DNA from: Liolophura sinensis
Lineage: Eukaryota; Mollusca; Polyplacophora; Chitonida; Chitonidae
Reading direction: 5' to 3'
Assembly: GCF_032854445.1 (NCBI RefSeq)
Contig: NC_088298.1
Coordinates: forward strand, 9,785,504-9,849,503
Length of the DNA: 64,000 nt
The notes below the pieces were generated by a model. It was not told the origin of the DNA. It ran no database searches and saw only the letters and a list, made by a program, of their open reading frames with translations. Made by a program: the position numbers and the translations under genes. Of this stretch, positions 249 through 62,720 are shown one piece after another. Position 1 is the first letter of the stretch. The number at the start of each line of letters is the position of its first letter.

Positions 249-356
249 CTCAATGTAAGCCGTGTAAAACGGAAAGTGAAAAGGAACACGGTAGTAATAC
301 ACGTCTTCCAAGGCGCTTCGGTATGAAGGCAGAGTGGACATGAAAGCGTAGATTTG
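249..356 (-). CDS. DUF885 gene exon 13b (second of two tandem alternative exons)
   Basis: This exon is 108 nt, phase 0 to 0, with acceptor ttctag and donor gtgaga. It begins QIYAFMSTLPSYRSALED and ends FPFYTAYIE. Same length, same phase and same start and end residues as exon 13a. The first half differs strongly, while the second half (YYYRVPFHFPFYTAY) is identical. Both copies are open and have intact splice sites, so neither looks like a pseudo-exon. Confidence 0.83.
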
Positions 357-2322
357 CTAGAAGAAATCAGTGGAGAAAAATGTTAATATCTATCGGATAG
401 ATAGCACCTTGAAGGCTTTCTCTCACCTCTGTGTACGCCGTATAGAATGGGAAGTGAAAAGGGACGCGGTAATAGTAATCCGTGTCCATGGTGCGTCGGT
501 AGAGAGGTAAGGCTGATTCCAGGGAGTAGATTTGCTGGAAGGGAGGAGTTGAGGCAGACATATTACAAAGGTTCCTAGGCTGTATAAATATAACATTTGT
601 GCGTAAGTGTAAGTTGTATACGGGGCGGTCTGCCACTAGCCTGGGGATGGTCGTGGATTTTTTCCCAGTGTCGGCCGGGTTTCTTCCCACCATGACGCTG
701 GTCGACCTCGTGTAAGAGTAAAGCATCGATCAAAGAAATAAATATCCAGGAAAATATGGATAAAATACATGTGGTAATGATTATTGAAGCAATTAACATC
801 AATCCACATTTGTGTGGGAGACAAAACATGTGCCTCAAGGAATAATGAAAAGTTCGTGAGCAGTGTGTTCACTCTACATAGAACGGAGTTTCTTATGCAG
901 CAAACTGCCTAAAACATCCTTTTAAAATGTGCCACCGGACAGCAGGTAGATTTGACTTATACTTTAAGTGATGTAAGATACAGGTGGTCTATTGTCTTGG
1001 CGGAACAACACATTGCGAACTATGGATACTAATCCCAGGTTGATTGCAACGGATCTTTAAACTGTAAAGAAGTTTTCCACAAATCCGAAATGATCAGAAC
1101 TTAAACTTTATGGAGGAAGCTGAAGTTCATAACACATACCTGTAAATGATGACCGGGTACAGTTTCGTGGAGGCTGAGGGCTGCCATGCCGAAGAAATTA
1201 CTGTGATGGTCAAATAAAGAAAAACAACTCTTAAGTCCATGTTGTATTGTTTCTGGATTGGTTGGTTTTTTTACGAGAACTCATGGATTACATTATGCAG
1301 CTGCAGATACTAAAGGATTGTCAGAAAGTCTTCCTGATAGCACTTTTGAATAACCTGGTGCATAAACTGATTGGTAAAATGGATTGAAGATTGTATAGTT
1401 GCGCAGTACAGTCCGATTGAAACCGTCTTAACCAGACAGGCTGGTGGAAACAAAACCCGGACTTAATGTCATCCGCCCATCCAGGTGGATGTGTATTCGA
1501 ACTCAATGATTAAAAATGTTAGATGTCAGGAGTAAAGGAGTCCAGATGGCTTGATCAGACAAATGCCATCACGAGCATAACCATACACAAAAACTGACAT
1601 ATTACACACAGTACAAATAAATATTGATTCATTCGTAACGTTTTAGACATTTTTTCACTGACGTAAAGCATCTAAGCGGAAGGGCCAGGGTTTGAACACG
1701 AGACCTTTTTCATTAAGGCAGTATTCTAGGAGATCGATATTGAGCTCCACCCTACACTACCTCTTGAGACGCATATCCCAACAATAATCCCACACGTACA
1801 CAATACTACAAAAAAGACACATTCAGTCTTGCTAAATGCCAGCAGCATGGAGAGAAAACCTTGAGCAGCGACGACAGTGTGATAGCCGGCAAATGGTCAC
1901 ACGCAACCAGCAAAACACGGCGTCTTTTCAGTTTACCTCAGCTAGGATTTTACTCCAACTGTTCATGTAAATTCCTAAAGACTAGCAAATTCCTCGAGGG
2001 CCATGGCTTAAGCAGATTTAGGTAAAAATATTTTGAAAAATGCAATGACGTTAATTAAAATTTATTAGACGTTGCCTGATCTAGAATTACCCAAATTGGT
2101 GTGTTGTCATCAAATATGGAACAATATCAGTGACATGTTTCAATACTCACACTGTCTCTGGGTGTTGAAGGTTGACCTGAAATACACCGGGTCTTTTCCC
2201 GTCCGCGGATCCGGCGAAATAAACACCCCCTGGGCCATCGTACTGCATAGGCATTACTCTGTGAGGGTAGAAGGCGTGGTGATTGGTTCGCTGATTGATT
2301 GATTGATTGATTGGTTGGTTGG

Positions 2323-2384
<62 letters not shown>

Positions 2385-5300
2385 CGGATTACCTGGCTGG
2401 TAGATTGACGAGTGCTTGACGACTTCATTGATTGATTGATTGATTTACTTGTAACACTGCCAAGGTTATGCCTGGAAAACTGTCTAGAAATGGGACAATG
2501 AAAAGTATGTCCATGTCATACTGAGCGGAATCTCAAATGGAAAACCTTATTAGACAGCATAAATAGGTCTCTATGAATTCCATTAGAACGTTTCATGTTT
2601 GTTAGCTGCCCATTTTCGGGTTTTAAGTTCGTTAGCACCGAAAATTACACCCAACAAGATATCAACTTACTTGACAGGCAGGTTTGGTATGTCTTTGAAG
2701 AGCTGTGTCAACTTGGGTGTGATTCTGTTGAAGACAATGTTATTAAACCTCGCGAGAATCTCCTCCTACAAAAACGAGAACGGAGATGTGTACTTTGCAT
2801 ATTTAGTACAGGAATAAACCTCACTGTTATTTAGTGAAGTGAAGTTTCTGACTTATAATGAGTAATTATTTATTGATTTTAATTAAACTTTGTTCAACAG
2901 AAGACTCTCACAAAATCACAGGTCTTTCTGCAGATCTATTAGTGGCGACAAGTCAGTATAGGTGAAGGGGGGAGGAGGACTTCAGCATTTACATGAAAAG
3001 TTAGAATAAAACCCTAACTGAGGTGCACTGACAAGAAGATTTCATCTGGTACGTGTGACCATTTGTCAGTCATCACACAACTCTCAAGACTGTAAGTCTT
3101 GTATTAATATTTCTGCATTCAAAGTGTGATGATAGCCTGTACCTGCTTCTCTGGTCTTTACCCTGACTGATGTAAATTGACAAGAGGCCGTATTTCACCG
3201 CTTACATGTGACCATTTGCCAGCTATCAAACTGTCGTAGCTGCTCTGTTTTTACTACGTATGTTGTACGTCTTTAATTACAACAAAGGAATTCACTGTAT
3301 CCTCTGACCTCACTGTTCTGGTCTTACTCTCTGTCCTGTACGTCTGTATATAGTTCTGTTACCTTTGACGAAGTGTGGAATTGAGGGTCAGCCTTCAGCT
3401 GGTCAAACTTCTCCTTAATGCTCCCGGTGAAATTTTGTTTGTTGAAAATCTGGAAAATAACAGTACATGGGATTCAACATAACGATATTATGAGTAATTC
3501 GCGATGATAAATGATGGATTATCCCTTTGGGCAATAAATGAATGTTGTTAAACTGGGACACAAATGAGTGTCATTTGGAACACTAAATGTTGTTTTCATA
3601 CATAATTCACGTAATGCATTATAAGCGCTCGTCTAAGGCATTCATGACTCGATCTAAAAACTTGTACATTGCATTTAAAAAATCGTCATTAATATCAGAT
3701 GGTATTCTTGTCTACGAAATACAGTTAAGTCAACAAAAGAGGGTTATCCAAATTCATTAACACGTGACTTCCACCATGCGTACATAGAATTCTGTAGACA
3801 TATTAACACACCTTGCGCATGAGCGCTGCTATACGTGCCACTTCCTTCAAACCCTTTTGGTGAACCTCATCGGGTGTCATGTGGACAGACAGGTGCCATG
3901 TGAGCGCTGCTTGGTAAAACGCTGCGCCATTGGTGAAGGATGAGACGCCGTATCCGGGCCTAGTGTGAAGAACGTACTCCTAAATAAATACAATAACAGC
4001 ATTTGAGACAACCTTCAAAAACAACTGAAGCGCCATCAACGCGTGGGTGCTACCAGAAATAGTTGATAGTGTCGTTTTATTTTCTGTTAAAAGAGCAATC
4101 AGCAACCGACTGCACTAAAGCTTCTGATTGAATCTAGACGTCAAAACATTCATATACCCATCGCCAAGAATAACTGAAGTATGAGGCCCTCGTTGAAAAC
4201 AATGCTGTGGTAAATAATTAAGAGTTTTTTACCCTTCAGAATCCTACTTTCAAAAGCAAGGCCCTATGTGACAGTTTTGTTTAACTCCCTCTCACAAACT
4301 ACAAGAATAGAGCCAAAAATTAATGTACAATTATCCAAACAGCTGGGATGATCACACTTAACTGCCTGCTCACAAACTCACATCCACAATGAAATCCTTG
4401 AGTCTCTGATAAGCTGGAATGATGCTGTTCAAAACCGTGTTTCTGGCCTCGGAAATCAACGTGTTCCTAAAAAGAGACAGGTGGATCATTAATATATCAC
4501 GAGTATCAAGGTAAGTTTTTCCATTATAAACTGCATGCTAAAATTCACACTACAGCTTATAGAATACATGATCTAACAATGCTGCTATACACTAGCAGAT
4601 AAAGCCTGTAAATAAAAAGAAACAAAGAAAAACACAGATGGAGTTTGATATGTACAAAGTGTTTCTTCCGACCTTTTTGACCTTTGGCATGCTTGAGAAA
4701 CGTAGTGTACTGCATATTCTTCTAGCGTGACAAGAACAAGCTGATGCAAAACCAACTTGTGAATATCTACGTAAGGATATTTCCACATACCATAGAGTTG
4801 TAGTAACAACGCTGCTTAATTTAATCCGAGTTCTTAGCCATTGGAAAAGCCAAAATCGCTCATACAGCCCTTGTATTGTGACCGTTCTGTGCCACAAAGC
4901 AGCTACTGTTGCGGATTTATATTTAAATCCCCCAGGTGTTCAACCCGCATGCCTCAACACTCTGAAGGCACCAACTCTGTACCATCATTTAACCTAAATA
5001 TATCGTTTGGAAATATCACCCAATGAACTGACGACATCCAAATTTGAATATTACGTTTGCTGGTTTACCGTAGATGCCTAACATTTTTGGTGTGAACATA
5101 CAGGCCATGGAAGGAGTGGCGCAGTGATACATAAGCAGCACTGTCATGAAACGCCGCTATGAATTTTAGTCAGTAAGGTTTTATGGCATTTTTTAAATAG
5201 TTTAAAAGTAAAAATGTCGAACACAATTTCACTTGAAAAGGCCTCAACCTAGCATAGAATAGGTTGTTTAATTGTTACTGCGTATTTTATATCTGCGGAT

Positions 5301-8300: not shown

Positions 8301-11300
8301 AAAAGCAAAAAAAAGCCAACAAAAGCCAGGGAGATTGATACTCCTGTCAAATAGGTGTGCGGTAATGAAAAGAAACGTCTGGGTATACTCTGGAAAATAT
8401 TGATGAAACCTCGATGTCATCGGAAATCAGATATGATTGCATGTATTTCTTTCCTCGGAATAGTGGCGCGGGGACAGTTATTCTCTTCCGCAGTCACACG
8501 AGACAAATGATTGTTCTCCAGCATTGCCGATGGTGTTTTCCGGCTGACAGATTGGAACCTGTAGTCTTATTTCTGACGTATGTATCTACAAAACTCTAAC
8601 GATACTACGCTGTCTTTTTCCATACAACACGGAAAGAAGAAAAGGTTACAAATTTAGGCGTCGAATCATATATAAAATGAGATTTTCTTCTTTAATGACC
8701 AAATCAGTTCTTTTTTATTTGTCTTTTCTTCACTAGGCTACCTCACCAAAGTGGTTCCCAGTTCCACTTTCCGCCGTTAGTACAGAGATTTCTAAAGCCC
8801 AGTGAAAATGAAGCGATTACAATCTGGGAGTTTCGAGTTCGAACTCTTCTATCACTAAAGGCATCGCTAAGGTCTACTGTATCATGGGACCTGTCAAAAG
8901 CGTTTGGCAACTACTCATGTTACTATAACATGAGCGTCTGAAAAAGTTTCCCAAAAAGTAATGTAGATTAAAACAAACGATGAAGAAAATCGAGGAGCTG
9001 AACGTTCGTGCACTGGAGAAGTTTCTGAAGGAAAGAGGTGTCACTTGTGCCTGTGGAACACGATGAGACAAGTGATCGGTGATTTAATGCCTACAGAAGC
9101 CTAACATTTTTCACAAGTCAGATAATAGAGGAGGACTGTTTTTATCTTCAACGACAAAAGAGTTCGAGGGCCGTGGGTTTCCGCCGGGCTCTGCCCGGTT
9201 TCCTCCCGCCACAATGCCTGCCGTCATGGTATAAATGAAATATTCATGGGTACTGTGTGAAACATCAATCAAATAAATAAATTTACCTGGTCAGAGAGAC
9301 CCTTCATCCGGGAGAGAAAGTCGATGAAATCTTGTCTTGTGTCAAAAGGACAAATATCAAACCGGTATCCAACATTCAGCTGGGGACCTTCGAGGAAACT
9401 CACGGGATTTCCTACAGAATATCTGAAGCACAAAAACAGAGAAAATCCTTGTTTATTTGGATTGCCTTGTACACTTTACAAACGAACATTTTCGCATATA
9501 TATCGTCGTTTGGATTTATCGGCGGAAACAATTAGGCCGTGGTGGTTCTGTTGAATTGAGAAGAAGGGCGGGAGAGATGGGTAATGATGTAATGATGGGA
9601 GAGGGGGAGATGGCTCTCGGCAACCACACGTCGCCTAAAGATTTTTTAACGTAAAATTTACAGCAGTTGAACATGAACAAGCCACATTGATAGCGGCCTT
9701 ATGTGCAGTGATCAACACCTCAAGAAGCGGAATTTGGTCAGCTAAAAAGTCAAAAAATTAATCTGTTGATTTCAATAGAAAGTCTGTTGTCTGAGTGAGG
9801 CTAGGATGTATTCTGTTATTATAACATAATATTCTGTCATATTCTGACACCATACCCTGTCAGTGTAATAAAATAATAAAAATAATCAATTAATAGAATG
9901 TGTGTGTTCTATTCAACAGAACAATCTGCTGCAATAGCAGAATACATTATAGCATCACTCAGGCAACAGATTTTCTGTTAAATCTAACAGATTAACTTTT
10001 TCAGTGTGTAATTGCCAGAATTAACATGAACGCCATTCCAAATATCACTAACGGCTAAAATTGTTGATCATACTCATGTGCTTTACAACATAGATTGATT
10101 CCGGGAGAAACTCCGATCAAACTTGTGGCGTACAGCGCACTACTCGGGCCGCGAACATCTTTGGATGTTAAGTCATGAGCTCAAAGGCATGCCCCGGGAT
10201 TATAATGCCGTCTCACGCTTAACATGAACTGTCCTAACTTGAGATCTTTTTTCTATATTTACTCAATTAAAAATTCCAATGGCTAGTCATGTTATGTTAG
10301 CACATAAAACTGGCATGTAGATATGAAAAAATATGTTCTATGTTTACAAGGCAGTTTTAGATTCAGGGACTGTTTCGCAAAAACCATTTTGAGCTTAAGT
10401 CCAAAATTTTAATCCTCTTTATAAAACTAATAATAGCAAAATATAAACAAAATTTTACTGAAATTGTAAAGGGTTTAATGTGGATTAACATTTTAGGCCA
10501 AGTCCAAAATCGCTTTGTGAAATGGACCCTACAAGTTGCTTCGCTTGGATTTCAATTTGCCTTACCCAGCCCTACTTCTACACCCTTCAAAACGGGGTAC
10601 AGGGATAAAAAAAAAGTAACGAAATGATTATCATAACCATACACTTACAGATGCCAGTCATATCCATCCACGTAGGTCTGTAACATGTCAGTCAGGATAA
10701 GGTAGTTAATAGAGTCGTCATAAGACATGGCGGAAAATGATGGTCGAGTCTTCACTTCGGTCAACCTCCGTAACAGTCCCACTATGTAGTCCTGTAATAA
10801 ACATTGCTCCACTGTATTGGCCGACTCAAAATCAACCTACCTAAGGATAAGGAAGAACTAGTTTCTCTTTCTGATTTCTTTCTCGTGTGTCATGTGCGAC
10901 AAGAAGGAAGCCACAAAACACATTTTTTGATGGAATATAAGTGCTTCTAAAGCTAATCAATCTCCATATGGCGGATGTATTCTTCTACAGCTGTTTAACA
11001 GCAGAATTCTCTTTTGAGATTACATATCAGTTCCTTTATTCGTAATCGTCCCATTTATCTATAAGGCATATTTGAAAATATATGTGCTTATGTCTTGTGC
11101 AGATAAATAAAACATAAAAATTAGGATTACCAGCAGAGCGCGCAGCTGGAAAGCTATAACACATTATATAGTCCGTAATGAGTAGTTTGGTTTGAGATTG
11201 TGCAATTTATTTTCCACTCTTAGAAAATTTTTGGACTTCTCATCTTTATTTGAGGAATTTGTCAGCCTTCACACATTGTGTAAAGCGTGTCGTTCCCATT

Positions 11301-13505
11301 AGTAATGCTGTAAGGCTTTAGCATTATCTCATTACGTAACGAGCACAGGTTTACAGAATTAGTGCCAATAGCAAAGCTTAGATATGAATGAAGGGGATTT
11401 TTATCTATTTGTTATGTTTTCTGAAGTAAGTAACAGTTATAAGATGTCACATTATGACAGAGTATAATCTTCGAGGGGCAAATCATTGAGAAAGTTGTAA
11501 TCTGTAGTGATCACGTGACATGTTATGAGAGTTTATATCACTTAACATGAACTGTTTACAACACTATAATATTTCATACTTCGGATTACTCTTCTGTTGA
11601 AGATATTCACACATTTTACAGTACAACAGAAATATTTTCTTCGACTTTATCCAGACTTTGTTACATCTGTTCTTTCACAATCAATATTTAGAAGCTATAA
11701 ATATATTCTAAAAATTGGGCTATTAAGCACATTAAACATCTTTTTTGATGAATATATGTTTCGGGATTCGCAATATGCATGTGCGTTTCGGAGCTCTCGG
11801 CACACATTACGAAAGCATTTGATGTAGTGCGCGATAGAATGGTTGCGTGGTTCATAAAACTTAGTCCCTTTATGATTGTTTTCCCTAATCACTTTACCTT
11901 GTTGGCTGTGTATATGGTCATGTTGTAATGGTCCAGCTGGTCGTTGTACAGATTGACACCGGCGAATGTGGCGAATTCTGGCGCCTGTCTCATCCGCCAT
12001 GCCCAGAATTCATTCTGAACCGTGCGCACTTCCGCTGCGACGTCGTCTGAAACAGGAATACTAGTTTTCTGATAATACTAGATAACATTTGTTTTTCTCT
12101 TTCTTGCATTTGTTTTTTGAGTGAATAATGATTGTTTCTTGCATGAGCATATTAAACATAACAGGGTTTTTAGAGTGTTCTATAATGAGACAGTATATTT
12201 CAATTTTCTTGTATTATATTACAGATCGAACTCTATTATTTGTTTTGGGGGTATTAAAGTATACATTTTTCATGGGAAAATTGATAAATGTCTTGTTTTA
12301 AGTGGCTTGATCATAGTCAAGCAAAGCTGACTATATATGTTGTCTTGCATTATCCTGCCGTCAAAATAAGATGAAGTCAAGCAGCAAAACTGTTAAAGTA
12401 CATGGAAGCAGTGGGAAATAAGGTAGCTGTGTTTGTTTTGGTTTTTATTGGGTTTGCTCCACACATAAATCCTATCCCCACCATCTATATGTAAGTGATA
12501 AATCCCTGGATGCGGATTACTAGATTTTTTTATCTATATCGCGGCTGACAGACTGCAGACTAACCGTAGTCTGCCAGAAACTTACGAATTGTTCTGAGAT
12601 TCCTCCTACCATATAATGATGTTCGCTGTCGTATAAGTGAAATATTCTGGAGTACGGCGTAAACACACCAGTCCAATAAATAAATAAATCAGGATATGGC
12701 CAGCAGACAAACAATTCAATATGATTTTGTAAATATGACTAAACTGTAAAAAAAATCCCGTTACCCATTTGAACGAAAATGTTCCTGTTATATTACAAAT
12801 TTAATATTAAAGTGTATATTACCTCAGGGTATCTTTTTAATAGCTTTAGCCGTAGAGTTTCGGCTGAATAAAGGCCACTACTCCCCTCCCCCCCACCCCG
12901 ACCTCCACCACACTTAGTCCCCGCACCAGGACACCTGGTGTTTGAGAGCTTCTCTTCTGATTATTATTGATTTCGAACATCCTACTTTGGTTTATGGGCA
13001 GTGTACTAAGTTGAAACATAACGTATTCTTAATAGACCCCACCCATGACATTGTCTATTTATTCAGAGTATTATTTCTGTAAATATTTCCTCAAATTTGA
13101 GTTGATTTTTAATGAGTTGAATTAAATAATAATGAACTAAGGATTTCCTTTTAATCTTCAGGTACTCTAAAAAATTCAGTTAAATTTAACACAAAGCCTG
13201 TTGTCTGTGTGAAGCTGGACTTTATTCTTTGATTGCAGCATATTATTCTGTTATATATACATGTCTCACATCTATTCTGTTAACTCAACATAATTGTACT
13301 AGATTATCAGGATATTATGTTAAAACATTTTTTTCAGTGTAAAAGTCGTGTATTTGCATATGGACAACAATTTTGTATATACTGACGTATGGGTAGAAGA
13401 TAAGGCTAAACGACCCCGTTTATATCTTCATGGCTCCTTACCTTCAAGACTATGCAATGGCACGGTGGACACGAGCAGCAGGCTAAGGCAGATAAGCAGA
13501 TACAT
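249..13505 (-). CDS. secreted DUF885-family protein (predicted metallohydrolase), 3' part beyond window
   Basis: Thirteen coding exons, listed in transcript order: 13505-13442, 12046-11898, 10791-10649, 9422-9287, 8292-8224, 6689-6580, 4466-4382, 3979-3812, 3449-3363, 2765-2671, 2258-2151, 1200-1140, then 534-427 or 356-249. All have AG/GT borders and phases match throughout (1383 nt, 461 codons). The start is the ATG at 13505, followed by a hydrophobic signal peptide (MYLLICLSLLLVS). DUF885 hallmarks in order are FWAWR...PEFATFAG (residues 35-50), TRPGYGV near the middle, LPVKVMPMQY, DGKRPGVFQVNL and HETVPGHH (416-423). The expected GWxLY-containing C-terminal part lies left of the window. 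DUF885 members are widespread in bacteria and occur in animals; the HExxPGHH motif suggests a zinc site, but the substrate is unknown. Introns carry SINE tails and D repeats; no exon is interrupted. Structure is certain to within a few splice choices; enzymatic role is inference. Confidence 0.88.
427..534 (-). CDS. DUF885 gene exon 13a (first of two tandem alternative exons)
   Basis: This exon is 108 nt, phase 0 to 0, with acceptor ttccag and donor gtgaga. It starts QIYSLESALPLYRRTMD and ends in FPFYTAYTE, directly after exon 12 (PGHHLQ). The family normally continues GWxLY after this point. Its twin, exon 13b, lies 70 nt further along the transcript. Both versions are 36 codons and match at 24 of 36 residues. 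Confidence 0.85.
628..745 (+). mobile_element. old SINE A tail fragment
   Basis: Diverged body (ggggatggtcgtgg, ggtttcttcccaccatgacg) and tail ending aaagaaataaat, in the intron between DUF885 exons 12 and 13a. Confidence 0.6.
1140..1200 (-). CDS. DUF885 gene exon 12 with HETVPGHH motif
   Basis: This 61-nt exon has acceptor atcacag and donor gtatgt, and encodes NFFGMAALSLHETVPGHHLQ. The motif occupies 1169-1146. In DUF885 proteins this HExxPGHH block is the most conserved segment and the probable metal site. A nearer AG (gcatggcag) would break the phase with exon 11, so the acceptor at 1201-1203 was chosen. Confidence 0.87.
1862..2130 (+). repeat. repeat family D, type copy and list of copies
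   Basis: About 270 bp: gcagcgacgacagtgtgat, aatggtcacacg, gtcttttcagtttacctcag, aactgttcatgtaaat, then aatttattagacgt and ctagaattacccaaa. Plus copies: 1862-2130, 14273-14400, 14913-15140, 20462-20570, 30190-30385, 38972-39090, 45302-45450, 46655-46880, 50790-51025, 54530-54770. Minus copies: 2970-3245, 27715-27865, 29900-30115, 30570-30800, 32745-32890, 35640-35850, 35930-36120, 43115-43205, 59040-59215. No tRNA-like head and no obvious inverted ends were seen. Confidence 0.85.
2289..2385. repeat. (GATT)n microsatellite beside the exon 11 acceptor
   Basis: Tetranucleotide GATT repeat with a few GGTT units, and a second short block at 2427-2444. On the gene strand it reads (AATC)n and ends about 27 nt before the acceptor of DUF885 exon 11 (exon starts at 2258), that is, in the branch-point region. 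Confidence 0.95.
6820..7145 (-). mobile_element. SINE B copy with an 80-bp internal duplication
   Basis: Reverse SINE B body in an intron of the DUF885 gene. The segment starting gcgagtccatgtc at 6854 is repeated from 6934, a period of 80 bp, with a few differences between units. Open frames here are repeat-derived. Confidence 0.75.
7726..7780 (-). repeat. tRNA-like SINE head fragment
   Basis: The minus strand reads ttgatagtccagttgggaga then a B-box-like ggttcgagtttcactgg. It has tRNA-derived boxes but no convincing acceptor stem, so it is taken as a SINE head rather than a tRNA gene. Confidence 0.45.
9160..9284 (+). mobile_element. SINE A tail fragment next to DUF885 exon 4
   Basis: Body and tail (ggctctgcccggtttcctcc ... 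caatcaaataaataaa) ending within a few bases of the donor of DUF885 exon 4 (exon end 9287). On the gene strand the donor gtaaat runs straight into the (TTTA)n of the SINE tail. Confidence 0.8.
9749..10005. mobile_element. MITE-like foldback with ~60-bp terminal inverted repeats
   Basis: The left end (aattaatctgttgatttcaa ... ggatgtattctg) and the right end (cagaatacattatagc ... aacagattaactttttca) are inverted matches over about 60 bp. Diverged relatives at 13165-13342 and 26400-26578. No transposase. Confidence 0.75.
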
Positions 13506-21935: not shown

Positions 21936-23196
21936 ATGGTCATCAAACCTTTCTGTATCATTGATGAATTTATGCACATATTGAAAAACAAGTTTATTAT
22001 CTTCGTAATTTAGAGCCAAACAAAAGTATATTACATATATATCGTGACCATTGTAGAATAAAAACAGAATAATTTACACCTGGTGAAATAATTTGTGTGA
22101 GAGTATATAGCATGTGGTTCCTATGGGTGGCAAATTGAGAGTAAATAAAAAAATAATGAAAGGTATCTTCACATGTATCATTACAGTAATGGCAAGTAGT
22201 ATCTTCGATAATATTATACTTAAAAAGGTCTGCCCGAAGAGCACTGAGTCCCATTCTCATTCTGCAGTGCTGGACAGATGAAAAGTTGCTAAAGTCATTA
22301 TATAACGATATTAAATCACTAGACGCAGTAATAATTGATGGAGATAGAAATTTTCGAAGTTCTTTAATTGAAGAATGGCGAATATGTTTAGGTAAATTAT
22401 TCCAGTCCTTAGTTGTTTTCGGGAAGAAGGAAGATTTATATATACTGAGGCAGCATCTAAATATACGTAAATTTTCATTATACCTTAAGTTATATGCATT
22501 ATACTCTGTTGATCGTCTTGATAATAGGGACTGTAGGTAAGGCGGGAAAAGTCCATTTACAATTATAAAAAATAGCAGAATCCTATGCTGTCTACGCCGA
22601 ACATATAGTGGCGTCCAACTGAGTTCACTCAGCAGAGCTTTATCCGATGTACGACGCATTCCACTCGTACAAACTAAAGCCGCGAGCCGTTGAACATTTT
22701 CCAGTTTTTGGGAAAGCGCAATACTACAGTTATCATATAATATGTCGCCATACTCTATTGTAGATCTAATGAGGCTATTGTATAAAGTTATTAAACACTT
22801 CCTTGTTAATATCCTCTTCACTCTATTTATAATACCTAATTTCTTATTACATTTATTTACCAGTGATCTTATGTGTTCGTCCCATTTACCATCGTGCTGT
22901 AGAATGATACCAAGGTGTTTATGGTACTGAACGCTCTTCACTTCAATACCATCTAAATACAGTTTTGGGTACATCGGGTTCATTTTTAAGGAAACAAGTA
23001 AGTATACAATTTTCTGTGCATTGAATGTTATCAACCACTGTTTGGCCCATTGTGACAAGCGACCTAGATCTCGATTTATTTTATTTTCAGATGTAATAAA
23101 CTCAGTCATGTCTTCGGACAAAGATGTATCATCAGCAAAAATACTGATATTACATTCAATGTTCGCATTTATGTCATTTACAAAAATCAGGAAAAG

Positions 23197-23470
23197 GGGC
23201 CTCCGTGGCTCAGTCGGTTAAAGCGCTAGCGCAGCGTAATGACCCAGGAGTCTCTCACCAATGCGGTCGCTGTGAGTTCAAGTCCAGCTCATGCTGGCTT
23301 CCTCTCTGGCCGTACGTGAGAAGGTCTGTCAGCAACCTGCGGATGGTCGTGGGTTTCCCGCGGGCTGTGCCCGGTTTCCACCCACCATAATGCTGGCCGC
23401 CGTCGTATAAGTGAAATATTCTTGAGTACGGCGTAAAACACCAATCAAAAAAAAAAAAAAAAAAAAAAAA
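23197..23470 (+). mobile_element. full-length SINE A inserted in the LINE reverse transcriptase
   Basis: tRNA-like head (gcctccgtggctcagtcgg... gagttcaagtccagc as A and B boxes), central body, tail ggcgtaaaacaccaatc and poly(A). Flanked by a perfect target duplication acaaaaatcaggaaaag (17 bp) at about 23180-23196 and 23470-23487. Recent insertion by appearance. Confidence 0.93.
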
Positions 23471-26400
23471 CAAAAATCAGGAAAAGAAGCGGTCCTAGAA
23501 TGGAGCCTTGTGGAACTCCACTTTGAATAGAATATATATCTGAATCTACTCCGTTTAAACAAACTTTAATTTTTCTATCAGATAAATAATTCTTAATCCA
23601 TGTCAGTAATGAGTCCCCAACACCAAACTGGCTCAATTTAAACAAAAGACCCTCATGCCAGACTTTATCAAAAGCCTTGCTTACATCTAGGAAACCTAAA
23701 CACGTATCATTACCGTTATCCAGACTTCTGTATACATCGTGTACAATTTTAGTTAACTGACATATTGTCGAGTCGCCATGTTTAAATCCAGAATTATTCG
23801 ATATTAGAAGGTTATGGTTAATACAATATTCATACAAGTGCTTATATACTACTTTTTCTAGGACTTCAGAGAGAGAGGGCTGTAGAGAAACTGGTCTGTA
23901 ACTTGACATATCATGTCTGTCTCCCTTTTTAAAGACAGGGCATACTCTAGATATTTTCCAATCTGATGGAAAGACTGAAGTGAGAAATTAAATAGCTTAG
24001 TGAGGTAAGGTGCTATATTTTCCTCTGCATTTTTTAGCATGAAATTACTAATTCCATCAGCACCAGAAGTTTTCCTAATATTTAGTTTGGACAGAAAATC
24101 CGCTACTTCCCTTTCACTTGTTTGTAACCGTTAAGGCGTGCAGCAGTATAATAGGTGAATGGAGGTAAAACTGGTATTACTGACGGAAGAGTTGAATGGC
24201 TTGCAAAAAATCTAACGAACTCATTAGCTTTCCCAGTACCACTTGATACATTTTTATCGTTAACGATTAAAGAAGGAAGAGGTGGTTTCCTTTTTGAACC
24301 CAGCAGAGATTTCATTATAGACCAGTAAGACTTGGCATCTAAATTGGGATTAGAAAGTTTCCCCCTTAGTTTTTCACCATATCTTAATATCGCTTTTCTC
24401 TTACTGGTATTAGCTTCAAGCCTAGATATATAAAATCGAAATCTGTCTTCCTCTGACTTAGTCCTCTTAAATTCTTTAAAACATCTATTTCTTATTCGTA
24501 ATTTATAACGAACATCATTTGTCATCCATGGTTTATCTCTTGGTCGTATTGTTACTTGCTTATTTGTTTTTGCTTCCGCACAAGAAGATAAAAAAAAAAG
24601 ATTGTTGTAAACATACAGTTTATCATCCATATCATCGAATATGTCACACACGGCTTCCCAGGGAGTGGTAGAGATAACTCACTGAAGCTGTATTAAGTCA
24701 GCACATTTAAAATCCCATGTGTGTCTTTTATATGCTCTTGGTTTATCATTTACCAGAATATTTAAGGTACAATATACAGAACAATGGTCAAGGTTGACCA
24801 TTGGCGAAGCTACTCCATATTCAGTCACATAACCGATACTATCTGTTATGATTAAATCTAAAATATATGAAGTTCCATTGCTATATCTTGTGGGCTCATT
24901 AATTAACCAAAATAAATTTTTACTTGTAATAATATTAAACAACTTCATTTTTTGTTCACTCATTTGGACCAATCAACACGCCTGTCATTAAAATCACCCA
25001 TAATTATCAAGGCGTCTGGGTTTTCTGTCGGAGCTGAATTGAGGCTATTGTCTAAGTTAACTAGAAACTCATCCTGTGTTTGTGAAGACTGGTTCGGGGG
25101 ACGATAGCCAACCGAACACAGTATATATTTATTAGATTGTTTGACTGAAATCCATTCAATTGGATTGGCTATTCTAGGCGGTTGCCGTCAGATTAATGGG
25201 TAGAGGAAACCGGAGAGCCCGGAGTAAACCACCGACCTTTGACAAGTTACTAACATACTATTTTACTATCGATCTATTATACATAAGCACTATTTAGCTG
25301 GCCGCCGTCGTATAAGTGAAATATTATTGAGTACAGCTTGAACGTCAATTAACGGCTACACCAGCTTGAAACTACGCAAAAGGCCACACGTTCGTTATCA
25401 ATCGCTTATTGTCACCAAATGTCACAAACAGTGAAAGTGAGAGAATATAAACATTCTCCAAGTCGGAACTGTAACTCCCACATCGTGTGTACTAGCGAAT
25501 GAAATGTATGACGGCAAGTGGAGTTTACTGCCACAAAATGAGCAACATAATATGTGCGACGAAACAGCCATTCGTATACCAGTCGTCAACCAAAATGAGA
25601 CGATCCATGTCAATAATGGCAAGGCCAATCCATCTAAGCATGATAGCCATCACTCTAAGAAGAACTAAACTTATAACAATTTTTGATTGTGTAATATAAA
25701 AAATTTTATTTTATTAAAAACAACAAGTCGTGGAGATGCTTCCACACTGTCATTTATATCCAGTAATACTTATTATTAATAGATGATATAGATGAGAATT
25801 CATGTTCTCCTGAGGTTTATTTACAACACCAGTGTACATATCAAACCTATACACATCCTCAAAGGCTAAAACTTTTTTCTCACATCAATTACCCATCTTA
25901 AAAATAAACATTGTCAAATACCCGTGCATAGAGGAAATCTCCGCTTGTTGCTAACCAATACAAATCTGTGTACTCTCTTGTTCACGTTGTCGTGTCTAAT
26001 GCATTTATACTTATAAAATGTCCACACGTCTTTGCGATCCAGTTCGTTTTCTAAAACGTGGAATAATTTATCTCATTTCGTTGGTAAGTTTAAAAATGAA
26101 CTGGACGTTTGAACAAAAGTATAAATATGACCATTAACTCCCCTTACAAACACTTGCCTTGTATTTTGGGCCCCTCGTTTTTGGCGGTAAATGAGATCCG
26201 AAATAACATGAGATCCGAAACACGATACATGGGTTGCACAGACAAACTTCTGCCATATTACAATAATCCTTTCCAGAACTTCTGAAGTAAACTTCGATTT
26301 GGTTTTCCATAGTATACAGTATCTCTCAAGACATAAAGTCTGACACGTGTACAACAAGTTCCCAGTAATGGAAGGTAACATGTCCTCTATAGACCAAGAA

Positions 26401-42083: not shown

Positions 42084-45054
42084 TTAACAAAACCCGCACG
42101 ACTTCTTGCAACTGCGTCCCATGTACACCCTGCTCCGTGTACAGTAGCCAGTCTGGGCCCACTTCGGACATCGACTCAGCTGGTCCAGGCAGTTCTCCTT
42201 CTCGGACTCTGGTAAATGAAGGAATATAATAAAAAGGAAAATAATAAAAAGGAAAATAATAAAAAGGAATATCTAGTAAATTCCACGACATGGTTTTTGG
42301 TAACAAAGCGACAAAAGTAACAAATATGTTCTGTTAAAAATCAAACCTCACAATTAATCATAATTTGACAGAGGATTAGAGAGCATCCCAGTCGAAAAAT
42401 AATGTTATCTAAGTTTTTAATCTATTGTTTCACTAAAAACAAAGAACTTTGGAACATATGAACCGCCTTCATGAATCATATTTATAGTCACAAATCCTAT
42501 GGCGTCTTTTTTTTCACTAATTTGTTCAGCTTTGAGTCGATTTATTTCAAGCGTTATGCAACGCAAAATGTCAGTTGTTATATACCGACAAAAACGGCGT
42601 CTGGCATCATTTGAACCTTTACAGTAATAGTCAAAATGGTTTATAATAAAGTGTCGTCTGCATTTATTTCTGTACAGAAACTGTAAACAAAAAAAAGACT
42701 AGTGAAGTCTAGCGAGCACAAATAAATGTGCCCAACAGTTCTTTATTCATTTGATTGATGTATTAAGCCAGCTTCAAGAATATTTCACAGCGATGTTGAG
42801 AGGTTTGTGAATCACTGCATTGCACTAGCACGCTAACAACTAACTCGGCGACGGAGGTACACTGGACAAGGCATTCTTATGGATATACAACTTCCTAACA
42901 CGACGTTTCGATGTAGTTACTAACATAATTTAGCTGAAAACGATGTTCGTAACTACATCGAAACGTTGTGTTGATAAACCAAGAAGTTGTATATCCGTAA
43001 GAATGCCTTGTTCAGTGTACTTCCGCCCCAACTTCTAAATGTCACTCAAACAAGTTATTCGCCCACGGAGGTCTCATACAGCAACTGTTTGTTTATTTAT
43101 TTTATCAGAGGCTGTGACTTCAATAATTTCACCCGTTACGCGTTCCCATTTGCCAATTACAACACTGTCGACGATGCTCTGGTATTACTCCTTATGCTCT
43201 TTCTCTATTACATAATCTTATAATCTTACCAGTTTTGTACTGCTTGATCATAGACCGTAGGTTGTTCTCACTGGGTGTGGTAGTCTTTGTGTCCACGCAG
43301 GTCTGGCAGGACTTGGGACAGTTGTTCTGCAGATATGTTCTGTAAAGTCCGTTAGAACAGTAACCGCGAGACTTCCAGAAGCGACAGTTTTGGTTTAAGT
43401 CTTCACACACCTCTGGCAGGAAATAATATAGAGAAAATTTAGTGCTGTTTCTTCTATCAAAAATAAACACAGACATACATAGTTCTACGGGCTCAAATGT
43501 GTGCGTGTGCGTGTGTCTGTATGTCCGTATCTATGTATGTATGCATACATGCGTGTATGTATGTACGTATGTAAGTATGTATATATGTGTGGGTCGGTCA
43601 GGTTGAGTCCATGACGCCACTGAAATATTATGCAGAAGACACCAGACATGACACCCAACACACCCACATTATACTGCCAACCAGTCATGTTTCCTTGCTC
43701 TAACCTGTCTGTGTGCTTTATTTCAGTTTGAATGTTGCCATCACATCGAAAACCATTCACTGATTTCTAATTCTAATATGTTCTCGCTACAAAAAATAAT
43801 CATTCATTTCTTGCTCTAACCTGTCAGTGCTTTTGACTCGAGCAGGATGTATTGTGAGCATTAGTGTGAACATACTTCAAAGCTTAAGGAAACACAGTTT
43901 CACCTCAATGATAAGGAAAAACGTAACTGCCAGCTAACTGTTTTGGGAGACGCCATCTTTATGTCAAATGTAACTCACCGACCAGATAAAGAAATAAACA
44001 CTTTCAGGCATATGCGACCTTCTCGGGTGACCTATGAAGGCGCAAGTGTTGTGATTAAGACATACAGCAACTTTATCGATCAGGTGCGGCGAGATCAACG
44101 CTTTAGGCAAATGAGTCAGTGGGAGACCCCCCCCCCCCCCTCACCTCCCCCCTTCCGGTCGAACAATTAAGTTCTTACCATCCACAGCATTATCCTCACA
44201 GTAATCGCACGACTTCTTGCAGTAATATCCCATAAATCCCTTGTTTCGGCTACATTCCCCGCGGAACTTCCAGTATGAACAGCGGGGGTTCCGGTCTGTA
44301 CAGGGCAAGACAGGACGTGATGTAGTGACACGTAGTGTTGTTTTCGTTTTCTTTGTACTCGTCGGCTTGGTTGTTGTTGTTGTCTTGGTGTCGGGATTCT
44401 CATCACCGGAGCAGATTTGGACCGGATTTCCTGGGCAGTAACAGCGACAGTCCTGCCCGAGGAACCCAACACCCGGGCAAGTTTTCTTCGGACAGCGCTC
44501 TGATGACATAAAGTAGAAGAGATGGGTAGATAGTACTGGGGGAATTTGGTAAAACCTGTTATACACTGAATGTGTATAACCACTACCAAGACTTCCAGTG
44601 CTGTGCAGGATCGTCTTCGCCGTATTCAAGAATGTTTCACTTCTACGACGGCGGCCACCATTATAGTGGAAGGAAACCGGGCTGAACCTGAGGGAATCTT
44701 ACGACCATCTCTAGGTTGATCCGTAGGCCGCTGACAGCCGGAGAGACAGCCAGCATGAGCTGGACTTTAACATCAAGAGTCTTGATGCAACCATCTAAAA
44801 CACGGACCTAACACTGATAACACAATCCTAAGCAAATATACAGCGAAAAACATGAGCAAAGTCAAAAAAATACTTTTCAATCTGAGAAAAGCAACATTAA
44901 AAAACACCTCCAGTGATTGGTTGGTTCATCGACAAACACTGGCTGCCCTGACGTAAGAAAACTGAGTGGGACTTGTTTGGTGTCCTATTTAAAAGTGTAA
45001 TATTCTTCAGTACGAGGTAAAACACCAATCAAATAAATAAATATTTAAATAAAT

Positions 45055-45114
<60 letters not shown>

Positions 45115-48100
45115 ACAAAGAACCAAACTAATAAATAAATGAATGACAAGCTTAGCTCCTCTGATATGCAGCTGTCTGTATTAGTAAAAACATGAGGTGG
45201 AGAACTGTTGCAAACTTTACCTACACCATATAACATATGAGGTGGAGAACTGTTGCAAACTTTACCTACGCAATATAAAAGACTACAGTTTAAAGATTAT
45301 CGCCAGAGCAGCGACAACAGTGCTCTAATTGTCAAATGGACACGTTGAAATACGCCATCTTGTCAATTAACCTCACTTTAATAGGGTCTGAAGTTAGCTG
45401 CAATATATAGACGTCACTCGTCTAGGATAACCCAGAGCTCAGTTCTTGTTTACCTGCGCAGTCATACATAATATTAGCCAGTTTGACATCCCGGAAGCTG
45501 AGCTGTTTTGCATGTCCCATGACGTGCTGATAACGCTGATCTTTGGCGATGATGGTAGGTAAGCCATTCACGGAAAAAGCCTGGAATAACTTCAGTGTGT
45601 TAGTACACCAAGTTCTTATATATTATAGATTAATACAAACAGTGACATATTCAGACGACTAGCTACACAAATCAACCTACGGTGTATGGTTACTTGGTTG
45701 AGAGCTTGACCGATATTCCCTGTGAATTCTAAACTTTTCATTTGTTGATTGCCCCTACTGATTAATGTCTGCTTCAATGGGAGACTCAAGGACTTCATAT
45801 GCGTTTTATGAACGCACGTACTCTGATAAAAACTGTGCAAAATTAAGGACAGAATAAATGACTTCAAAGTCTTGATACAAGCAGGAAGGAGTTTTACGAG
45901 TTCCCCATTTATTGGTATCTGTTGTCTTAACATTGTAACGCACATGTTCACTAAGGTAGATGGGAAAATTCATCACAGAACGCAATGTGAACGGGTAAAT
46001 AACGCATAAAAGGATAAACAAATGCAATTAATGCAACCGTACATGGGATATAATATTAGATTTGAGCTCGAAATTCTTAGCATTACATGGCTTCGCGACA
46101 GTAAAAAATATCTATTTATATAAATGTTATAATTTTCCAGCGCTATTCAAATGGAGAAAAGACAAAGACTCCTATTCATTCAAAATCACAAGTAGGTTTT
46201 CCACGGGCTCTGCCCAGCCCCCCCCCCCCCCCCCCCCCCCGCCCTCTCTTTCCCCACAAATAATCTGTCGTAGAAGGGAAATGTTCAATAATCTTCAGTA
46301 CGGCGTAAAACACCAACCAAAGAAATAAACAGAAGCAGATATGTATATATATATATATATATATATTTCAACAAACAAAAATAACGACATACTGCGTACG
46401 GTTACCTTTTCACTGTAATGCATGATACTCTCGTAGTCATACGGTACGTCATAGTTGTCGACCGTTCTGAGCGGGTACCTGTTGAAGTTGTAGAGAAGAT
46501 TTGACGGAATGTTCTGCTCCTGAATAGTGACGTAAGCGTCACGATCTGGTCGCGTTTGCTCGTGCTGGAACCCCACCGCGTGACCAAGCTCGTGAACGAC
46601 GACTTGTTCCTGGAGGAGAGGGGACCAAAAAGGTTACATATATAATGACAGAATGGAGAGCATCGACGACAGTGTGATGTCGAATGATCCCATGTAAATG
46701 GTGAAATACCGCCTATTGTCAACTTACCCCAGTTAGGCTTGTATGGTACTCATGTAAAAGTTTACATAGTAGCAATCTGTGCGAAAAACGACTTCAGCAG
46801 AATTGGGAAAAACATGAAGGCCGTGATGTTCGTTGCAATTTATTAGAATCTAGAATTAATCAAAATGCACTGTTTTTTTTTTTGTCACGTTTAGTGAACA
46901 ATAACATTAAAACAATAACAGACAAATCAATGAAAAGAAAAAAAAAACACCTGTAACTAAAATACATGCGCGTCATCTGCACATTCCAAATATGATTTCA
47001 TGATTTTTTTCCAGTGAACAAAATGCAGACAAAACCCACTGTGGCTAGATTTGAACAGGTGGTCACAGTGACGACACAGATGATTAGTATGGCATGATTG
47101 GTCCAAAAAGACCACCATAGAGTCTTTATTTGCACTGTATTCACTGTGAGAAAATGTGAAAGGAAATCATAAAAGCCATTTCCGGAAATGGTCTAATAGA
47201 TGACCCATACTTGCATTAAAGGTGGTAATTCTCCAGTTAACTGCCATTAACTATATACTTATATCAACGTCTTGCTACTTAGGTACTAACTTATCAGGAG
47301 TACGAACCCTTTAACATCATGACAGCCCATATATACTACATGCGCTACATGATCAAGTTAAGCGTGATCCAGTACCGAATTTTGGGGTCGCATGTGCTTC
47401 GTTTTCATAATTGATCAAATGTACACTGGGAAACTATTTTGAACCAGCTGGAGGTAAACCGCATCGAGGACAGGGTGATCGCAGTTAAGGCCACACCAAT
47501 TTAACTTGTTGCTTTATGGGAAGAATAAAAGAGGGTTTCAGGTCGTACTTAACAATTTTTAAGTTATATGACGACGAGGGGTCATTAGGTATCTGTACAT
47601 ATATTGTGTCTTCTTGGGGCAGGGCAGGTCCATGCCGCCGAAGTGCTAACGCCACTGAAGTTTCATGCCAAAGACACCAGACATGACACCTCACCAAGTC
47701 ACATTATACAGACACCTGGCCAACCAGTCCTGTTTCCATGTAATCTCTCAATACTGAGCGCCAAGAATGAATGATTACGGTTTAACGTCACATTGCTAAG
47801 CGCCAAGAAGTAATATTTTTAACGCCTTTGTTATGACACCACCCGAACTGGGTCTCCGGTCTGCGGACTTCGAGGCGAACGGCCTAACCGTTAGGCCACC
47901 GAAGCGGTTTACGGCTAGAATAAATTTTTCGACGGAGGGTATAAAATAAAATCTTGAAAATCATCTAATTTGTGGAATATGTGGACTATCCGGAAAGTTG
48001 TAGACATATTTAAAAACACAACAACAACAAAATAAAGAAATAAATAAAATAAAAATTATGCAGATCGGACTAAATAAAACGGTGGATTTTCAGTTCTATT

Positions 48101-61237: not shown

Positions 61238-62720
61238 GAAGAATGAATGAATGAATGATTATGCTTTAACGCCACATCGGCAATATTTCAGCCATATCGT
61301 GGCGAGAGCAAGATGAAAACACGAGGCGATTGAGGTTTCCGATATGGTGGTAAGAGCATCAAAAATGAAACAAATATTTGGACATGTTTAAAACAGATTA
61401 GAATAACCAAAACAGTTAAAACTGGAAAACCCTCATTTTAAAAATAATATATCAAGAAATGTATATATAACTTTATCGATAAATATTTATATCTTATGAT
61501 AAAGGCCAATGGCCTTCAAATAACTGATGACAACATCGCCAGCGATGTTGTCAAATAAATCATATATAGAGTTGACTGTGTAGAATCTCTGACGAACTTG
61601 GGCAAAGTCCCGATGTCAACCAAGATATGTTTGATGCCATATTGGGCATCGCATCCAACACACTCGGGAGGACTGCTCCCATCTAGTATGAAATTGTGCG
61701 TTAGGCGACACCTTGTTAAGACTACTTGGTCTCTACGAGACTTTTCGCATAGCATGAAGTTTATTATGGACCTGCAAGTTCCATTCACCCTGCCAAAGGC
61801 AACGAATATATTTAAGAATATTGGACCTCATGTCAGTATAAGGGGTTTTTATCGTTGATATGGGTTTATTTATGGCAGCTTTCGCCTCCCTGTCTGCGAC
61901 TGTGTTTCCATGGATACCAATATGACTTGGTATCCAGCAGAATATGTCTTTACCTTTTCTAATTAGTTTCCTATGTATAACTAAAATTTGCAGGATCAAG
62001 GGATTTTTAAATTTGTTATTCTGTATTGCCAATAGGCAAGAGAACGAGTCAGTGCATATCATTGCCCTCTGGGCATGCCCAGAAGAAACATATGATAGGA
62101 GTATAGCTCTGGCCTCGGCAGAGAATTTTGAAGAAGAGGGTGGAAGACGAAAGGAAGACACTCGCTGCTCCATGACAGCCGCAGCCGCAACCCTGTCCCC
62201 ATCCTTCGACCCGTCAGTGTATATAAATTTATAATCCATATAATTAGCTTTAATTTCAGCTAAACCTTGCTGAATTATAAGAGGAGTTATATTCGATTTA
62301 TTATATTTACGTAGATCAAATATTAGTTTAGGTTGTGGAAGAAGCCATGGAGGAGACTCCGGAAAAGACACAGGAGCTATGTCCTCCAGCTTGATGTTAG
62401 CTTCCACAATATGGTCCTATATACGAAGACCGAACGAAGGGATCGTGTTAGGATATTTATTATATTTGTCTACATATAATGGATTGAAAACACAGTCGTA
62501 GGCAGGGTTTGTTGGATGTCCTTTAAGCTTTGTAGCATATTGAAGGCTAAGTTTTATACGTGGGTTATAGAAAGAAGGCTCATTTGCCTCCACGTATAAA
62601 CTGTCTACTGGTGAGGTTCTAAAAGCACCAAGGCTGAGCCTCAAACATTGGTGATGAACAGGATCCAACATTTTAATATACGACTTCCTAGCGGAATAAA
62701 TGTTGAAGATGTCTGTCACT
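61238..62720 (-). mobile_element. 3' half of an RNase H-bearing LINE, degenerate
   Basis: The minus strand encodes the end of the RT region (62719-62417), one in-frame TAG, then an RNase H domain (about 62300-61800) with YTDGSK, SAEARAILL, CTDSFSC and NTVADREAK supplying D, E, D, D. A frameshift near 61745 leads into REKSRRDQ/LTRCRLTH and a CxxC-type motif. The 3' UTR ends in ggcgttaaagcataatcatt with (ATTC)n at about 61240. 5' truncated near 62720. Probably I/Jockey-related. Confidence 0.85.

Follow-up and report, generated by a model that had tools for sequence, protein, structure and literature searches.

Tandem, probably mutually exclusive exons beside the predicted metal site of a molluscan DUF885 gene

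Results and discussion

A gene of the DUF885 family (gene A), on the minus strand of the window (the whole 64,000-nucleotide stretch of DNA analysed, contig C4:9785504-9849503, in a searched genome of 609 Mb), contains two exons of exactly 108 nt, or 36 codons, each. Mutually exclusive splicing of these two exons, A1 and A2, is the best explanation of their arrangement and in our judgement a highly probable one, and one gene probably makes two versions of the enzyme. We propose that one coding exon was duplicated in tandem and that both copies were retained as mutually exclusive alternatives, each mRNA carrying A1 or A2 between the exon with the HExxPGHH motif and the EGW exon. The two proteins would differ only at 12 residues, in the segment running from just after HExxPGHH up to the EGW glutamate, and its divergent first half would most likely tune substrate preference or activity.

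Structure of gene A and its exon pair

A1 occupies positions 427..534 of the window and A2 positions 249..356, with an intron of 70 nt between them (357..426; all on the minus strand). Their translations are QIYSLESALPLYRRTMDTDYYYRVPFHFPFYTAYTE and QIYAFMSTLPSYRSALEDVYYYRVPFHFPFYTAYIE, respectively. Both exons are in phase 0 at both ends and have GT-AG splice sites; the acceptors are CCTTCCAG and CTTCTAG, and the donor is GAG/GTGAGA in A1 and A2 alike. The upstream exon (1140..1200, minus strand) ends in LHETVPGHHLQ, with the donor GTATGT after 1140. The downstream exon, found in the genome beyond the window and 1.3 kb past A2, reads GWGLYAE... after TTTTACAG, also in phase 0. A1 and A2 share 24 of 36 residues and differ at 35 of 108 bases; in codons 20-36 the identity is 16 of 17 residues, and in the first 19 codons 8 of 19. 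The preliminary description of this DNA had claimed two phase-0 exons of 108 nt, 70 nt apart and with good splice sites, matching at 24 of 36 residues with a nearly invariant second half and a divergent first half, all of which is borne out by the translation, the splice-site reading and these counts. With one copy as tblastn query the other was recovered at an E value of 9e-15, the next-best match in the window lying at 0.01 to 0.026. An assembly artefact or a recent copy was rejected because of the number of differing bases and because the synonymous sites of codons 20-36 are saturated.

The visible exons of gene A, spliced via either copy, give a stretch of 340 residues. The product matches positions 173-505 of the 532 positions of the Pfam DUF885 model (PF05960) at 7e-101 with A1 and 2e-99 with A2, and the respective scores of 339.8 and 334.8 bits exceed the curated cut-off of 32.4. 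With A1, it also matches the solved lipoprotein structure 3o0y (4e-64). Further DUF885 exons of gene A, with ends set by eye, lie on the minus strand at 2151..2258 (VMPMQYDGPGGVYFAGSADG...), 2671..2765 (EEILARFNNIVFNRITPKL...), 3363..3449 (IFNKQNFTGSIKEKFDQL...), 3812..3979 (EYVLHTRPGYGVSSF...) and 4382..4466 (NTLISEARNTVLNSIIPAY...), and one more C-terminal exon is also present. A profile built from 16 prokaryotic relatives located two possible N-terminal exons with approximate ends on the same strand, at 11901..12044 (profile positions 29-76, i-Evalue 0.0022) and, as a weak match, at 9281..9412 (positions 123-166, i-Evalue 0.75). A dispersed repeat (GTTTTACGCCGTACTCAA...CAGCATTATGGTGGG...) is found in DUF885 introns (L012:1119-1269 and 2026-2172), and by eye it also stands at about 600-730 of the window and in other DUF885 introns.

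The HExxPGHH motif and the EGW glutamate are present in all five DUF885 genes found in this mollusc, and in our reading of the alignments the two together appear to define the family. The preliminary description spoke of a predicted metal site next to the exon pair. The motif does stand there, and the site is a prediction only, HExxPGHH taking the place of the canonical HExxH. In the papers examined, the only pointer to metal binding or metallopeptidase activity is computational: in one DUF885 protein a zinc site of two histidines and one glutamate is predicted, the glutamate not being named (PMC12572635). The EGW glutamate is plausibly the third metal ligand. Every copy has this glutamate as its final codon and would thereby complete the motif, while specificity could change through the divergent first half; the two isoforms may thus not be equal in activity or specificity. 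In the parts of the literature examined, DUF885 proteins have no established function; one mollusc paper names a DUF885 domain for uncharacterised transcripts of a gland (PMC11359391). As the preliminary description had supposed, no description of alternative exons in the family was found among the papers listed by searches of a full-text literature that covers few subscription journals.

Several other features were noted on the minus strand of the window. An exon of an astacin metallopeptidase gene lies at 46406-46609 (PF01400, E 1.5e-26), and an open frame with a ShK domain at 44144-44698 (PF01549, E 5.8e-7), less than 2 kb away on the same strand, is perhaps part of the same gene. A reverse transcriptase frame at 23448-23987 (PF00078, E 1e-22), likely from a retroelement, is neighboured by long frames at 22000-23217 and 24106-24678, and an RNase H frame at 61736-62416 (PF00075, E 9.5e-8) is perhaps another retroelement.

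Paralogues in the same genome

Eleven matches from a family search that may miss diverged genes, together with tblastn, were assigned to five DUF885 genes, A to E. In all five, the segment exon lies between the same two introns and in phase 0. Gene A, in the window on contig C4, has two segment exons of 36 residues each, and gene B, on contig C12 near 10.26 Mb, also has two, of 36 and 35 residues (108 and 105 nt). The remaining genes have one segment exon each: 35 residues in gene C (contig C12 near 10.31 Mb), 37 in gene D (contig C13) and 36 in gene E (contig C12 near 19.64 Mb). The copies of gene B, B1 and B2, occupy the same position as A1 and A2 and are parted by an intron of 63 nt; that a paralogue repeats the arrangement is what most deserves attention in this finding. 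Close relatives without an open second copy had been named beforehand as evidence against exclusive use, and among the four same-genome paralogues one has the pair and three do not.

A genome-wide search with A1 listed only A1, A2 and C; since B1, B2, D and E escaped it, it is not exhaustive. When the regions of all five genes and the window were scanned in six frames with a profile of the seven segment exons, no third copy and no relics of the exon came up; the next match after the seven, downstream in gene A (i-Evalue 0.047), looks like chance. The intron before the EGW exon of gene B contains a long minisatellite (L011:6292-7977; TRF periods 121, 182 and 303, with units of about 60 nt by eye). 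Its sequence is similar to the acceptor and opening codons of the adjoining EGW exon, and its units carry an acceptor-like CTTACCAG. Elsewhere in the genome, at G000:C8:37880506-37891931, there are eight tandem haemocyanin beta-sandwich matches to PF14830, a haemocyanin model typical of molluscs, which mark the genome as probably molluscan.

In 79 of the 80 prokaryotic relatives compared (the best 80 of 576), a glutamate stands eighth after GHH. This residue is glutamate in A1, methionine in A2 and leucine in both B1 and B2; C, D and E likewise have no glutamate there, D having one two residues later. Read without gaps, A1 is the only one of the seven mollusc exons that carries it. At this position A1 is, on the alignment, the exon most like the prokaryotic relatives, and in lacking the glutamate A2 does not stand out from the other mollusc exons.

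Selection on the two copies

Substitutions between the copies were counted by NG86, and the rounded counts were used in the Fisher tests. In codons 20-36 of A1 and A2, 10.0 of 10.2 synonymous sites differ and 1.0 of 40.8 non-synonymous sites (p 9e-10). For the first 19 codons pS is 0.63 and pN 0.35, where the constraint is not significant alone (p 0.07); over the whole exon pS is 0.78 and pN 0.19 (p 1e-7). The corresponding values for B1 and B2 are 0.94 and 0.39 (p 6e-7). Both copies of A and both copies of B are under purifying selection. In simulations that left one copy free of constraint, 24 identical residues with no stop arose in 19 of 3,000 runs under the lowest divergence setting and in none of the 3,000 under each of three higher settings; the observed base identity of A1 and A2 (73 of 108) falls between the two lowest settings. 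From the saturated synonymous sites and this simulation we infer that both copies most likely have been in use.

Segment length and the short introns

Patterns holding EGW or LHExxPGHH yielded 576 confirmed stretches. In the best 80 of these, all from prokaryotic relatives, the distance from the end of HExxPGHH to the EGW glutamate is 25-27 residues without exception. Both motifs were required in this count and are hence selected for; the spacing was free, with 5 to 90 residues allowed. The same segment of the mollusc DUF885 genes has 37-39 residues with one exon and would have 73-74 with both. The Pfam score is 205.5 bits with one copy, 191.5 with both and 170.1 with neither, the drop with both copies being modest.

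The intervening introns of 70 nt (A) and 63 nt (B) compare with a minimum of about 198 nt among 72 other measurable introns of the genome, in a survey of approximate lengths that is blind to introns short enough for the search to read through. The minimum is about 198 nt for 22 introns of myosin genes, about 269 nt for 22 of chaperonin genes (one of 23 pairs was dropped, both matches lying in one open frame of 622 aa) and about 242 nt for 28 other DUF885-gene introns, a hand-made and approximate table from search hits that covers C, D and E from the HExxPGHH exon onward.

Branch points in the two short introns are sequence candidates. The best branch-point-like A of the gene A intron is at +44 (ATTAAC), and another of equal quality at +60, though just 10 nt short of the intron's 3' end, would mean a larger donor distance. 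The gene B intron has no A between position 33 and the terminal AG, and its branch A is therefore predicted to lie at most 33 nt from the donor. Passages of two papers propose a distance of less than about 50 nt between donor and branch point as a steric limit (PMC7969005, PMC5740500), and the latter reports potential steric interference of this kind in 57 of 629 human clusters. Under the proposed steric mechanism, joining of A1 to A2 would be hindered because the intron is only 70 nt long and its branch point would have to lie close to the donor, and whichever copy is recognised would be spliced to the flanking exons.

Competing RNA structures of the docking and selector type were considered as a mechanism; measured against single-base shuffles only, the signal is weak in A and absent in B. 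In gene A, the duplex energy of the short intron with the 300 nt upstream is below that of 40 of 40 single-base shuffles, and with the 300 nt downstream below 39 of 40; the direct repeats common to both copies amount to a 12-nt element overlapping each donor, which occurs a third time at 196-207. No signal was found for the duplexes of the gene B short intron, where 25 of 40 (upstream) and 24 of 40 (downstream) single-base shuffles were as low or lower.

Alternative explanations

Inclusion of both exons, as a constitutive or regulated long form in which the 36-residue segment next to the active site would be doubled, is unlikely. The frame would stay open, because A1 and A2 are in phase 0 and multiples of three, and an intron of 70 nt can in principle be spliced, short introns being routine in some invertebrates. 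However, the segment would then have 73-74 residues, against the 25-27 of the prokaryotes (best 80 of 576) and the 37-39 of the five mollusc genes with one exon, the Pfam score is lower with both copies, and the reading would need the 70- and 63-nt introns, in a genome where the minimum among the 72 others is about 198 nt, to be removed with predicted branch points less than 50 nt from the donor. The same length, intron size and Pfam score disfavour co-inclusion within a looser cassette use, in which either exon, both or neither would be included and the form with neither would act as a non-functional regulator. Every combination keeps the frame, but the form with neither exon loses the EGW glutamate and its Pfam match starts only after HExxPGHH, and we regard this scheme as very improbable.

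It could also be that one copy is dead or rarely used, a decaying exon, and that the gene makes a single protein. Three of the four paralogues manage with one copy, and A2 lacks the eighth-residue glutamate, a weak point since B1, B2, C, D and E lack it too. Against this stand the splice sites, intact on both A1 and A2, the single replacement in the second half despite saturated synonymous sites, and the simulated unconstrained copy, which seldom or never reaches the observed identity; we hold a dead copy to be quite unlikely. Mutually exclusive splicing, the interpretation already offered in the preliminary description, fits the anatomy, the selection on both copies, the paralogue pair, the constrained segment length and the short intron. 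Exclusivity and the use of both copies are its deduced part, and the paralogues give a mixed picture, the presence of the pair in only two of the five DUF885 genes found here counting against exclusivity.

Origin of the exon pairs

In the best topology of an exon tree (37 columns), A1 pairs with A2 (support 80) and B1 does not pair with B2; the topology with both pairs costs just 0.35 log units more. A single old duplication inherited by both A and B, which would make their first copies orthologous, is disfavoured, being 10.8 log units worse (AU p 0.077). These trees favour, short of proof, separate duplications in A and B, or a single one whose copies were later homogenised. The exon ends, TE in A1 and B1 and IE in the other five, hint against independent duplications. 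The gene tree, in which 7 of the 12 prokaryotic rows lack the N-terminal part, gives no resolved branching order for A, B, C and E. Convergent tandem exon duplication is documented elsewhere, for example in passages on ion transporters (PMC9741552) and in the account of mrp-1 in part of PMC7434440. A bolder and rather doubtful possibility is that the same active-site-proximal exon was duplicated independently in A and B and kept in each as a sterically exclusive pair, which would give four interchangeable versions of a pocket segment and a recurrent specificity switch of a peptidase-like enzyme.

Comparison with known systems and significance

Mutually exclusive tandem exons are a known class. 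In passages of a human survey (PMC5740500) and of a description of 236 human events (PMC9741552), they are likewise adjacent, homologous, of near-equal length and in the same phase, and conserved residues are kept in both copies, as here; DUF885 is not named in those passages. The present case differs in that two paralogues of one genome share the pair at the same exon, and in that exclusivity is read from the sequence. The exclusive exons 6a and 6e of coq-2 in nematodes, annelids and molluscs, as described in part of PMC7434440, likewise swap a segment of an enzyme near its active site, and the derived exon there replaces residues conserved in other eukaryotes. Splicing and function were shown for coq-2 (function in C. 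elegans); that protein is an unrelated polyprenyltransferase. For exons 4a and 4b of OGDH, a passage of PMC7969005 attributes exclusion to a size-restricted intron with branch points 25-41 nt (in human) from the 5' splice site; these were mapped experimentally, whereas ours are predicted. The oyster AOX gene is also a mollusc enzyme gene with a tandem-duplicated exon, exon 10, giving two proteins (PMC5589949, in part), although terminal exons and an alternative 3' splice site are involved there and an internal exon pair here.

An enzyme family that is still uncharacterised gains tandem exons that are probably mutually exclusive, and a paralogue repeats their layout. Solved DUF885 structures are available (3o0y, 3iuk and 3u24), the mollusc segment being about 12 residues longer than the prokaryotic one (best 80 of 576). 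An isoform pair that differs only between two conserved motifs would be a ready-made experiment on the role of this segment, and the tissue or stage pattern of the isoforms would point to the substrate. The recurrence of the pair in paralogue B suggests that variety in the segment is useful, and recalls the convergence described in passages on ion transporters (PMC9741552) and mrp-1 (PMC7434440).
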